Assembly: GCA_018402155.1 (NCBI GenBank) | Contig: JAGYJG010000001.1 | Span: 1,190,198 to 1,254,197, forward strand | Length of the DNA: 64,000 bases | Direction of reading: 5' to 3' | Source of the DNA: Bacteroidia bacterium | Lineage (GTDB): Bacteria; Bacteroidota; Bacteroidia; NS11-12g; UBA9320 | Part shown: positions 43,245 to 47,451 of the stretch, in pieces | Numbering within the stretch: position 1 is the first letter of the stretch | Layout of the letters: each line of letters starts with the position of its first letter | Program-made: the position numbers and the translations under genes | The notes under the pieces: model-generated | Databases searched by the model: none | The model's input: only the letters and a program-made list of their open reading frames with translations | Told to the model about the DNA's origin: nothing

Positions 43245-45086
43245 CTAGTTTTCAAAAAAATCGTTATTCAACAAACGGTAGTCGAACTTCTGCTTGAAAA
43301 TCCTCAATTGATGCATCATTAGTGCTACTATTTTAGGATACTGATCACCAACATTATACTGATGTGCATAGTCATTTTTGTAAGCAAATAGTGAGGGCTG
43401 ACTAATTCCATTCCAAACCAATGAGAAAGAATCTGAAGTACATGTGTACAAATTTCCATCGAAATGAAATACGAAACGTGCTGCTGTATCATACAATGGT
43501 TTAGAAAAACTTACCGTTTGTGGTACACCCGCCCAACTTTTTAAGGTTGGGAATAAATCAATGTGTTGTATCAGAGAAGTGTCAACTTTTGGAGTTTGAT
43601 TAGGTTTATATACAATTAAAGGAATAGCGTATTTCCCTCTGTCGTTAGAATAAGAAGGAGTCTCATTAATAGACGTGTGGTCTGCCGTGATAACAAAAAC
43701 AGTATTAAAATACCAATCTTGCTTAGCGACTATAGAAAAAAAAGAACGAAGAGCCTCATCGGTATAGCCTACAGTTTGATGTATAGGTGCCGTTCCTTTT
43801 GGAAGATAGCTGTATTGGGATGGCACGGTGTATGGATGATGGCTGCTCAAAGTAAACACACCACTAAACCAAGGCTGTTTTTGTAGGTTTATTCTTTGAG
43901 CAAAATACTGCAGAAAAGGCTCATCAAATATGCCCCAAGTTCCGTCGTAGTCTTGCTGTACAGGATATTGTTGTCTGCCTATATATTCGTCCAAACCTTG
44001 CGATATCAAAAAAGGTTTAAAACCCATAGATAGTTCGTCGGCCCCGTGATAAAATGAGGTAAAATACCCTTGTTTTTTTAACTCAAGTGGTAAGCTAGCA
44101 ATCGAACTAGTGGTGTATAGAGAGCCTATGAACGGCATTTTCATAAAGGATGGTATACCACAATAAATAGATGCTACTGCATCCATAGAGCGCAAACCAT
44201 TGGCATAGGCATTGGTATAGTTGGTAGATACATTCATGAGGCTATCTAGGAAAGGAGTATAACTTTTCCTGCCCGACACATTCAAAACAGTATATTCTTT
44301 GCCAAAACTTTCAAGTAAAATTATACATATATTCGGTTTAGAAATGTATTCGGATTTAAGCTGAATGTTATCTTTTTTCAATTCTTGCATTAGCTCGTCC
44401 TCAGGAATATATTCTTCGTATGTGATGGTATTTTTTCCGATAGACTCTAAGAGTACATAAGTAGGTGTGACCGCCGAAATTGCCTCATTATTAGGCAATG
44501 CAGAATAAGCGTCTAACAAGTTTAAAGGTTTAAGAGCTGTACCACCTCTCGCAAAAAAAATAATAACCAGAAGCAAAATACTACTCAATAAAAGTGAATG
44601 CCTCGTCGTAGTTTCTATATCCGTTTTTCTTTCGAGCTTTAAGATAAGCCACAAAAAGATTAAGGCTAAAAAAATAGCCCACCAATAATCTACAACGTAA
44701 CTAAAAATTATCGAAAAACTTTGACCTTTCAACAGTTGAAAAAGCTCAAAACCCACTATGGTCTTACTTATTTCAAAATAAAAAACATTAATAAGGCTAA
44801 AAACTAATGCTGCTAAATACAGTAATGTAAAGGTACCAGTACATAGTATTCTCCACCACGTTGCTTTATAAAATAATCCTACAAAAAGAAGCAAAAACAA
44901 CGGTGAATACCATATAGTCAATGATTTAAGATCAAACCTTAAGGCATACCATAAATACTCAAAATGCATATCCACAGCTAAGTTTGGGTGCAGAGTCCAA
45001 AGCACAAAACGACTTATCCAATACGGGGTGAGCATTAAAAGTACGAATGCAATAATTTTACAACTATTTTTTATCTTATTTTCCAC
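43245..45086 (-). CDS. LTA-synthase-like membrane sulfatase family protein
   Basis: A protein of about 613 residues with five N-terminal membrane helices and a large periplasmic alkaline-phosphatase-fold domain, as in lipoteichoic acid synthase. Metal and nucleophile regions are ILLESFGKEY, NGLRSMDAVAS (the Ser standing where LtaS has its catalytic Thr), FYHGADE and ITADHTSIN. Gram-negative members transfer phosphoglycerol or phosphoethanolamine to envelope glycans or lipids; the acceptor is unknown here. The frame opens at a TTG (45101) that lies within an AT-rich promoter-like sequence; the GTG at 45086, giving VENKIKNSCKIIAFV, is a better start. Confidence 0.85.
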   Translation of the reverse strand: MENKIKNSCKIIAFVLLMLTPYWISRFVLWTLHPNLAVDMHFEYLWYALRFDLKSLTIWYSPLFLLLFVGLFYKATWWRILCTGTFTLLYLAALVFSLINVFYFEISKTIVGFELFQLLKGQSFSIIFSYVVDYWWAIFLALIFLWLILKLERKTDIETTTRHSLLLSSILLLVIIFFARGGTALKPLNLLDAYSALPNNEAISAVTPTYVLLESIGKNTITYEEYIPEDELMQELKKDNIQLKSEYISKPNICIILLESFGKEYTVLNVSGRKSYTPFLDSLMNVSTNYTNAYANGLRSMDAVASIYCGIPSFMKMPFIGSLYTTSSIASLPLELKKQGYFTSFYHGADELSMGFKPFLISQGLDEYIGRQQYPVQQDYDGTWGIFDEPFLQYFAQRINLQKQPWFSGVFTLSSHHPYTVPSQYSYLPKGTAPIHQTVGYTDEALRSFFSIVAKQDWYFNTVFVITADHTSINETPSYSNDRGKYAIPLIVYKPNQTPKVDTSLIQHIDLFPTLKSWAGVPQTVSFSKPLYDTAARFVFHFDGNLYTCTSDSFSLVWNGISQPSLFAYKNDYAHQYNVGDQYPKIVALMMHQLRIFKQKFDYRLLNNDFFEN

Positions 45087-45108
45087 TTGAATAAAATGCA
45101 AATTATGT

Positions 45109-45116
45109 TAATTTTG
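45109..45116 (+). promoter_or_regulatory. -7 element of rpmE2
   Basis: TAATTTTG matches TAnnTTTG and is followed by CAGTCC, close to the TTTGCAGCCC extension of other ribosomal genes in this window. It lies about 80 bases before the rpmE2 ATG, leaving an AT-rich leader. Confidence 0.5.
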
Positions 45117-45198
45117 CAGTCCTATAAAAGTAAAGGTAATAATAGTTTAATATATAGTTGCCGTTAAGTACATAAATAATAAAGAATTTTATACCATC

Positions 45199-45450
45199 AT
45201 GAAGAACGATATACATCCAAAAAACTACCGATTAGTCGTGTTCAAAGACATGTCTAACGACTTTCAGTTTTTAACAAAATCTTGTGTAGAAACAAAAGAA
45301 ACCACCACCTATGAGGATGGCAACGAGTATCCAATATACAAATTAGAAATCTCTAGTGCATCACATCCGTTTTATACGGGTAAAATGAATTTTGTAGATA
45401 CTGCAGGTAGAATAGACAAGTTCAACAAGCGATACGCCAAAAAGAAATAA
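45199..45450 (+). CDS. rpmE2: 50S ribosomal protein L31, type B
   Basis: An 83-residue L31 that bridges the two ribosomal subunits. It begins [17 protein letters not shown] and ends FNKRYAKKK, with the type B insertion [32 protein letters not shown] split here across residues 32-65. It lacks the paired cysteines of the zinc-binding A type, so it does not need zinc. It has its own promoter and a terminator that immediately precedes the next gene. Confidence 0.95.
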
Positions 45451-45471
45451 TAAGTTTATCTTTTAAAATAC

Positions 45472-45505
45472 AAAAGGCTCTCTATATTTGGAGAGCCTTT
45501 TTTTT
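45472..45505 (+). terminator. rpmE2 terminator
   Basis: AAAAGGCTCTC (45472-45482) pairs with GAGAGCCTTTT (45491-45501), loop TATATTTG, followed by further Ts to 45505. The next start codon is the very next base. The loop itself is a promoter element (see separate entry). Confidence 0.9.
45483..45490 (+). promoter_or_regulatory. -7 element inside the terminator loop
   Basis: TATATTTG, an exact match to TAnnTTTG, forms the whole loop of the rpmE2 terminator and lies 15 bases before the ATG at 45506. A transcript starting here would begin within the 3' arm of the hairpin and escape termination. Confidence 0.5.
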
Positions 45506-46705
45506 ATGAATATACTACTATTTGACGATGACAAGCGCAGTGACCTATTGCCCCTTGTCTATACACGGCCTTGTGCAGAATTACGCATAGGAATTCTCAC
45601 TTTGGCCGAAAAATGGCAAAAGAGATTGCCATGTAAGGTTAGCTATATTACCCAAAAATACTTGTCTGCTAAATTTTCTGCACATTTTAGCTCAGATAAT
45701 CTATATATTAACGGAAGATTATTGGCTACAGAGAATCTTTGCCAAACGATACTGACATTAAAAAACAATTCATCACTATGGGAAGGAGATAAGATTTTGG
45801 CGCTAAGAAGTGAAAAAATACTCTGCTCGTATGAGGAGATACAGCGAGAATGTAACAATAAAATTCAAACGGAAGGCACAGTATTTCTGAATTTCACTTA
45901 TGATATTTTCAGTAAAAATGGTCAGGAAATTGCTGCTGATTTTCATCTGATTACAGCAGGACGTACATCCGCAAAACTATCTGATACTAATACACTAATA
46001 GGAAATAACATTTTCATAGAAGACGGAGTTAGTATAGAAGCGGCAGTCCTCAACGCATCAAATGGCCCGATATACATAGGTAAAAATGCAGTAATCATGG
46101 AAGGTTCAACTGTAAGAGGACCATTGGCCTTGTGCGAAGACTCAACTATAAAAATGGGCGCTAAGATATATGGTGACACAACCATAGGGCCCTCTTGTAA
46201 AGTAGGCGGAGAGGTAAGTAATACCGTATTCTATGCAAATAGTAATAAAGGTCATGATGGATTTTTAGGAAATTCGGTGATAGGAGAATGGTGCAACCTA
46301 GGAGCGGATACCAATAGCTCAAATCTTAAAAACAACTACGCGTACGTTAAGTTGTGGAATTATACAGCTAAGCGATTTAGTCCTACGGGACTACAATTTT
46401 GTGGACTAATAATGGGGGACCACAGCAAATGTGGTATCAATACAATGTTTAACACTGGCACAGTAGTCGGTGTATCTGCGAACATATTTGGGGCAAGCTT
46501 TCCAAGAAACTTCATCCCTTCATTTACCTGGGGCGGAGCATCAGGCTTTGCCACATACGCAATCCCTAAAGCTTTTGAAACAGCAAGAGTAGTGATGCAA
46601 AGACGCAACAAGGAACTAAACGATATAGAAAAAGATCTTTTAGAAAATGTTTTTGCTCAATCGGCAGAACATAGATTTTGGGAGAATAAACCAATAAACA
46701 CATGA
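45506..46705 (+). CDS. GlmU-like putative sugar nucleotidyltransferase
   Basis: A 399-residue protein with a divergent N-terminal nucleotidyltransferase half (NILLFDDDKRSDLLPLVYTRPCAELRIG) and a C-terminal left-handed beta-helix of hexapeptide repeats (IYIGKNAVIMEGSTVRGP, IKMGAKIYGDTTIGPSCKVGGEV). This is the GlmU-like group common in Bacteroidota, whose substrate is not established. A TTG inside the terminator (45488) would add six residues; the ATG at 45506 after the T-tract is the better start. It overlaps tpiA by four bases, linking it to central sugar metabolism. Confidence 0.85.
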   Translation: MNILLFDDDKRSDLLPLVYTRPCAELRIGILTLAEKWQKRLPCKVSYITQKYLSAKFSAHFSSDNLYINGRLLATENLCQTILTLKNNSSLWEGDKILALRSEKILCSYEEIQRECNNKIQTEGTVFLNFTYDIFSKNGQEIAADFHLITAGRTSAKLSDTNTLIGNNIFIEDGVSIEAAVLNASNGPIYIGKNAVIMEGSTVRGPLALCEDSTIKMGAKIYGDTTIGPSCKVGGEVSNTVFYANSNKGHDGFLGNSVIGEWCNLGADTNSSNLKNNYAYVKLWNYTAKRFSPTGLQFCGLIMGDHSKCGINTMFNTGTVVGVSANIFGASFPRNFIPSFTWGGASGFATYAIPKAFETARVVMQRRNKELNDIEKDLLENVFAQSAEHRFWENKPINT

Positions 46706-47451
46706 GACAAAACATAATAGCAGGAAATTGGAAAATGAATCTAGATTTTAACCAAGCCACAGAATTGGTCAAAGAAATCTTAGATAAGCAAAAAGAATCG
46801 GATGTTTTAACAATAATTGCACCACCGTATACACATCTCAAGAGCATCAAAGACATGCTAGGCCAAACTGATATTCGACTAGCTGCACAAAACTGTCATC
46901 ATCAAGAATCTGGAGCTTATACCGGAGAAATTTCAGTAAAAATGCTAAAAAGCGTAGGAGTGGATTATGTGATTTTAGGACATAGTGAACGACGCGAGTT
47001 TTTCAATGAAGATAGTCTTGCAATAAGCTACAAAGTGAGTAAAGTGTTAGAAAATGGACTGATACCCATATACTGTTGTGGAGAAACATTAGAAGAAAGA
47101 AATGAAGCACAACATTTTCACATAATAGAAAAACAAATTAAACAAGGGCTTTTCCAATTAAATGAGCTGGAACTTAATGACTGCCTCATAGCCTATGAAC
47201 CCGTTTGGGCTATAGGTACAGGAGAAACAGCTTCACCTGATCAAGCGCAAGAAATGCATGCTTTTATCCGAAAGACTATTGCTAACGAGTACAACGAAAT
47301 AATCGCAAACAACATTTCAATTTTATATGGAGGAAGCGTGAAACCGTCTAATGCAGTAGAGTTATTTAATTGTCCAGATATAGACGGAGGACTGATAGGC
47401 GGAGCCTCTTTACAAGTCGACCAATTTATTGAATTAACGCAAAGTTTCTAA
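46702..47451 (+). CDS. tpiA: triosephosphate isomerase
   Basis: A 249-residue TIM-barrel enzyme interconverting dihydroxyacetone phosphate and glyceraldehyde 3-phosphate. Asn and Lys of the active site are in GNWKMN (about 7-12), the catalytic His in LGHSERR (about 92-98), the catalytic Glu in AYEPVWAIGTG (about 163-173) with the flexible loop, and the phosphate site in YGGSVKPSN and GGLIGGASL. The ATG overlaps the upstream stop by four bases. No convincing terminator follows; the next gene is convergent. Confidence 0.97.
   Translation: MRQNIIAGNWKMNLDFNQATELVKEILDKQKESDVLTIIAPPYTHLKSIKDMLGQTDIRLAAQNCHHQESGAYTGEISVKMLKSVGVDYVILGHSERREFFNEDSLAISYKVSKVLENGLIPIYCCGETLEERNEAQHFHIIEKQIKQGLFQLNELELNDCLIAYEPVWAIGTGETASPDQAQEMHAFIRKTIANEYNEIIANNISILYGGSVKPSNAVELFNCPDIDGGLIGGASLQVDQFIELTQSF

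Follow-up and report, generated by a model that had tools for sequence, protein, structure and literature searches.

A putative glmU-tpiA promoter nested in the rpmE2 terminator of a Bacteroidota genus

Can the intrinsic terminator of one gene hold the promoter of the next? The junction of rpmE2 with glmU and tpiA raises this question in the window, a stretch of 64,000 nucleotides (G000:C1:1190198-1254197) from a Bacteroidia genome of 2.49 Mb in 10 contigs, the source genome. Downstream of rpmE2, the 5' arm AAAAGGCTCTC, the loop TATATTTG and the 3' arm GAGAGCCTTTT precede the ATG of glmU (Table 1). The original prediction took the eight-base loop for an exact match to TAnnTTTG, the -7 box of Bacteroidota primary-sigma promoters, and the match was confirmed. 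Eight bases is the loop length in the DNA layout; in RNA the outer UA and UG can pair, which leaves a folded loop of 4 nt. The prediction also had glmU start one base after the T-tract; the tract runs to 45505 and the ATG follows at 45506 with no base between.

Table 1. Features of the rpmE2-glmU-tpiA junction, in window coordinates.
Feature	Position	Strand	Basis or remark
rpmE2 promoter, likely -7 box TAATTTTG	45109..45116	+	TTG 19 nt upstream; kept in 14 of 15 species of the genus
rpmE2, type B ribosomal protein L31	45199..45450	+	NF002462, PF01197
rpmE2 intrinsic terminator stem-loop	45472..45501	+	arms 45472-45482 and 45491-45501, 11-bp stem
Loop TATATTTG, putative -7 box for glmU-tpiA transcription	45483..45490	+	exact TAnnTTTG; conservation
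Predicted glmU-tpiA transcription start	45495	+	box placed at -12 to -5, following the F. psychrophilum map
Terminator T-tract (T8), also most of the predicted 11-nt glmU leader	45498..45505	+	sequence; 7-9 T in the genus
Alternative bacterial glmU (alt_bact_glmU; sugar nucleotidyltransferase/hexapeptide)	45506..46705	+	TIGR03991, 445 bits (cut-off 225)
tpiA	46702..47451	+	PF00121, TIGR00419; 4-nt overlap with the end of glmU

The 3' end of rpmE2 has the stable stem-loop and following U-tract of an intrinsic terminator. The predicted fold of RNA 45440-45515 contains 13 pairs at -20.6 kcal/mol (z -4.75), and none of 200 shuffles was as stable. A search of the source genome allowing 3 mismatches recovered a single copy of the hairpin, by which a repeated element was rejected. 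The element shares with Rho-independent terminators a G+C-containing stem and then a U-tract, right after rpmE2, but differs in that its loop is invariant in the genus and its U-tract ends on the next start codon. In a sample of the source genome made with a simple ORF caller, 207 genes have an intergenic space of 50 nt or more upstream; T7 stands directly before the ATG in two of these, one being glmU.

The same 207 genes were used to assess the promoter box. In 43 of them TAnnTTTG is found 0-30 nt upstream of the ATG (5.7 in shuffles, maximum 13) and in 14 it is found 3-7 nt upstream (0.9 in shuffles, maximum 4); by these statistics the motif is a promoter signal in the source genome. Because of those 14, genes with no leader or almost none may be common there; the 15-nt gap between box and ATG at glmU is within the genome's usual range. 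An excerpt of the Flavobacterium psychrophilum map (PMC9723704) puts TAnnTTTG at -12 to -5. A promoter with a 4-nt gap would by this rule start on the A of the ATG, and the loop box would start transcription at 45495, in the 3' arm and inside the interval 45494-45504 given by the original prediction.

Unlike the B. fragilis and B. thetaiotaomicron promoters, which combine the -7 box with a -33 TTTG/TTG box, the loop box has no TTG at spacers 12-27 upstream in any of the 17 loci of its type described below. The relevant portion of one study reports that the -33 box was not found in F. johnsoniae (PMC7366714). In the source genome, TTG at spacers 18-21 accompanies 6 of 70 promoter-like sites, a background level (78 TTG counts at 787 sites of every kind). 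The -33 box seems not to be a defining feature there, and we filed the loop as a putative promoter with a -7 box only; as a disproof the missing -33 box was set aside on account of this background, and it remains a point against. The likely rpmE2 promoter (window 45080-45125) has TTG 18-19 nt above TAAATTTG or TAATTTTG in 14 of the 15 species of the genus, the exception being L003, with no promoter box in 130 nt. Since TTG is present at 14 of 15 rpmE2 promoters and at none of the 17 loop boxes, the loop promoter may be the weaker one. Around the rpmE2 promoter, conservation reaches beyond both boxes (GCAAATTAT..., GCAGTCC).

In a single genome the loop match is weak on its own, because TAnnTTTG occurs at 115 sites in the window against 85 expected, and because a script run over 464 kb of the source genome identified 65 terminator-like hairpins, one of which has the motif in or beside its loop. 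The latter count also led us to reject a genome-wide habit of loop boxes. In 419.5 kb of genome G016, 2 of 43 terminators have a loop box, both in a stretch chosen for holding glmU (L162), and the remaining 400 kb contain no terminator with TAnnTTTG in its loop. TAnnTTTG shows no general enrichment in hairpins: by a looser hairpin test, a stem surrounds 10 of 791 sites (1.3%), against 0.35-1.8% for seven permuted motifs. A scan of terminator loops over about 1.79 Mb, overlaps included and biased to the rpmE2-glmU locus, gave 22 matches, namely 17 of the rpmE2-glmU element, four at ftsY and one at L059, in its rpmE2 terminator; each of five permuted motifs matched 0-2 times in the same sequence. 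One match in 65 terminators is not unusual, as expected if the terminator simply leaked, glmU-tpiA being transcribed by read-through from rpmE2 and the TAnnTTTG in the loop being a chance match kept by common ancestry.

Comparison with relatives strengthens the match. The gene is present in 16 of 19 genomes of the same genus and the junction in 15 (in L015, from G018, the junction is cut). The loop TATATTTG is identical in all 15 species, which makes the match strong and a chance origin of the box, once relatives are compared, unlikely on this conservation. The arms AGGCT[C/T]TC and GAG[A/G]GC[C/T]T, a T-tract and an immediate ATG are likewise found in 15 of 15, with 7, 8 or 9 T by species (in L014, 6 or 7 after C-T); conservation between the rpmE2 stop and the stem is poor. 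In the 14 other species, GlmU is 62-72% identical to that of the window and 19-38% of glmU fourfold sites are identical. At 80% GlmU identity the 15 species, some of them close kin, form 8 lineages, and pairwise fourfold identity ranges from 0.19 to 0.82 with a median of 0.34 in a set that includes L018.

Three control terminators, each with a same-strand gene downstream, were chosen from 21 strict terminators and traced via orthologues of the upstream gene. Their loops differ in 10 of 15, 10 of 12 and 11 of 15 loci with a script-found hairpin, and their stems vary too, against one form of the rpmE2 loop in 15. Left out of these counts were 3 of 18 loci that ran off the contig for the first control, 4 of 16 without a script-found hairpin for the second (a distant second match in the source genome, L275, was also unused) and 1 of 16 that ran off the contig for the third, together with the partial matches L292 and L293. 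None of the three follows a ribosomal gene, whereas the ftsY terminator does; a terminator downstream of tpiA, wanted as a further control, was not seen in the stretches inspected. That the loop stayed the same across 8 lineages whose fourfold sites are saturated, when control loops changed, argues against the leaky terminator.

The box persists beyond the genus. In two sister genera (L018 from G019 and L182 from G028) the loop is TATCTTTG, with TAnnTTTG kept and one free base changed, possibly in a single event. This brings the loop-type loci to 17, in all of which the gap from the rpmE2 stop to the glmU ATG holds no TAnnTTTG other than the loop box. In L025 (G030) a similar hairpin has the loop TAATTTAG, one base off TAnnTTTG, as an intermediate or decayed loop promoter would. 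In three loci of genus g8 (L017, L020 and L021) the stem is similar, the loops are other and TAATTTTG stands 4 nt before the ATG.

For a phylum-wide survey, 199 loci were reduced to 186 by removing 3 without a usable start and 10 duplicates; rpmE2 lies just upstream in 139, of which 124 are outside the genus. These loci are not independent, and 80 of them are the best 80 of a longer list. Among the 124, TAnnTTTG stands 3-6 nt before the glmU ATG in 30 (shuffle mean 0.5, maximum 3) and within 30 nt in 45, L018 and L182 included (mean 3.7, maximum 10); among the 47 loci without rpmE2 it is within 30 nt in 16 (mean 1.6, maximum 7). Across Bacteroidota the distribution peaks sharply at 4-5 nt before the ATG. 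Among the 139 linked loci, the box falls inside the hairpin in 17, touches or overlaps the T-tract in 12 and lies beyond that tract in 26; another 5 have a box without a hairpin, and four of these (L121, L221, L228 and L229) resemble the T-tract kind by eye. Judging from these statistics and classes, glmU often has its own putative promoter in the rpmE2-glmU gap, packed onto the rpmE2 terminator in two ways. The remaining 79 loci lack a strict TAnnTTTG in the 30 nt before glmU, so a promoter in the gap is not universal; this, with the missing -33 element, counts in favour of the leaky terminator.

A script-found hairpin is present in 131 of the 139 loci and encloses TAnnTTTG in 18, the 17 loop-type loci and L059, on a Flaviramulus contig. 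The rpmE2 hairpins of other types thus enclose the box in 1 of 114 cases, which we took as a fair chance rate. In L059, TAATTTTG sits in the rpmE2 hairpin just after the rpmE2 stop and glmU begins 169 nt on; this is likely a chance case, and a loop box can exist with no promoter role for glmU.

In the T-tract type of rpmE2 terminator (12 loci by script and 4 by eye), terminator and glmU promoter likewise appear to share or adjoin bases, as with TATTTTTG on the T-tract in L079 (Pedobacter) and L060 (Adhaeribacter). Unlike in the loop type, the box comes after the hairpin and, except in L056, where it is further away, leaves 4-6 nt to the ATG (15 of 16 loci), so that a leaderless or nearly leaderless mRNA is implied. 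In L054, L060, L079, L087, L094, L117, L123, L125, L136, L223 and L230 the T-tract passes directly into TATTTTTG, which lies 4-5 nt from the ATG, another way of joining terminator and promoter. Of the 186 loci, 22 have a gap of exactly 4 nt between the end of TAnnTTTG and the glmU ATG, and 8 have a gap of 5 nt; loci with such short gaps include L017, L020, L021, L060, L087, L094 and L117. By box position the glmU leader is about 0-2 nt in many other Bacteroidota, which suggests that glmU mRNA may be leaderless in many of them. Within the genus it is not, the gap of 13-16 nt giving a leader of about 9-12 nt.

The invariance of the loop, the variation of control loops and the phylum-wide TAnnTTTG upstream of glmU thus support the original proposal that the rpmE2 terminator doubles as the glmU-tpiA promoter. 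Quite probably a primary-sigma promoter of glmU-tpiA is nested in the intrinsic terminator of rpmE2, a single element being both. An rpmE2 transcript contains both arms; it would fold and end in the T-tract, directly ahead of the glmU ATG. From the exact box we infer recognition by the primary sigma factor: a polymerase using TATATTTG as -7 box would start near 45495, inside the 3' arm, and its RNA, lacking the 5' arm, would form no hairpin and have about 11 unpaired nt before the AUG. In the predicted fold of this RNA, GCCUUUUUUUU-AUG, leader and AUG are indeed unpaired; in that of read-through RNA the hairpin is 4 nt from the AUG. Excerpts of work on F. johnsoniae (PMC6847099) associate low structure around the start codon with high translation and report that A at -3 helps initiation. 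The glmU context is U-rich without A at -3, which 43% of the 207 genes have. Read-through rpmE2 RNA, with the hairpin right upstream of the AUG, would be poorly translated, a further argument against the leaky terminator, which on balance we consider unlikely. Given a start inside the 3' arm and such poor translation of read-through RNA, glmU would be insulated twice.

How the nested promoter might be coupled to rpmE2 can be imagined in two opposite ways. A passing polymerase could hide the loop box, or a polymerase that has just terminated could restart at it. The available excerpts of two studies describe E. coli polymerase that is left on the DNA after intrinsic termination and restarts at the nearest promoter in vitro (PMC6978380; PMC11347151). 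The likeness lies in the restart at a near promoter, with a distance of almost nil in the loop element; the difference is that the E. coli promoters were separate from the terminator and the polymerase was studied in vitro. A selected stop-and-restart device, in which the polymerase ending a ribosomal-protein RNA in the T-tract takes up sigma and restarts at the -7 box it has just passed, would tie glmU-tpiA (ftsY in relatives) to ribosomal-protein transcription without a shared RNA; we regard this as doubtful. Sigma binds the non-template -7 box in unpaired form, and the hairpin might aid by exposing that box as an unpaired loop.

The conserved stem counts against the nested promoter, as a promoter box alone does not require it. 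In the genus the rpmE2 stem has only changes of the G-U kind, and no position is altered on both sides. Conservation of stem and loop together would suit an RNA element, with the 3' end of rpmE2 as the partner of a protein or another RNA (L31 autoregulation, or a 3'-end small RNA) and without a promoter. The stem of the terminator before ftsY is likewise kept through much of the family while its loops vary, which is in keeping with an RNA element; by the same token, stem conservation does not by itself point to a promoter. Against an RNA element, the sole loop change (L018 and L182) hits a free base of TAnnTTTG, a weak point if it was one event, and other genera shift the box to or behind the T-tract, the loop then varying. 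We judge an RNA element without a promoter quite improbable. That the loop is coding, glmU beginning at the TTG (45488) that is in frame in the window, is refuted by T-tracts of 7, 8 or 9 T that shift the frame between species, and we give it practically no credence.

The element would then combine a known promoter-box type with a known terminator type in an unusual nested form. With Bacteroidota primary-sigma promoters (B. fragilis, B. thetaiotaomicron, Flavobacterium) it shares the exact -7 box and, for the source genome, the usual distance to the ATG; it differs in lacking the -33 box and in having its box inside the terminator loop of the preceding gene. No description of a promoter in a terminator loop was found in titles and abstracts of the open-licence literature among the matches listed. 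The conservation indicates that a piece of about 34 bp has probably been kept by selection in two roles, to stop transcription of one gene and to start that of the next. Its geometry would give clean insulation, as RNA begun inside the element escapes the hairpin and RNA entering from upstream does not. It offers a natural test bed for polymerase restarting where it has just stopped, and it would be missed by annotation in which a terminator and a promoter are always distinct things.

A second case of the arrangement came from the scan, at the terminator before ftsY. FtsY and the gene before it, which is DUF4295-like and belongs to a ribosomal-protein operon, are putative identities based on sequence. 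The hairpin contains TACTTTTG (10 loci) or TATTTTTG (one locus) in 11 of 14 loci of the genus (L294-L304), 25-28 nt before the ATG; under the GlmU lineage grouping these represent 3 of 6 lineages, with L303 (G018) placed by eye. The loop box is absent in the source genome, L305 and L306. In the window the ftsY terminator (53715-53692, - strand) has the loop CTTCTA and no TAnnTTTG within 110 nt. The hairpin box is also absent in 16 of 16 loci of other genera, of which L310, L311 and L320 have no script-found hairpin. As a weaker case, ftsY supports the view that the loop-box trick recurs, and its distribution shows that a loop box can apparently be gained or lost. In one locus, L313, TATTTTTG overlaps the stem end and is 10 nt from the ftsY ATG.
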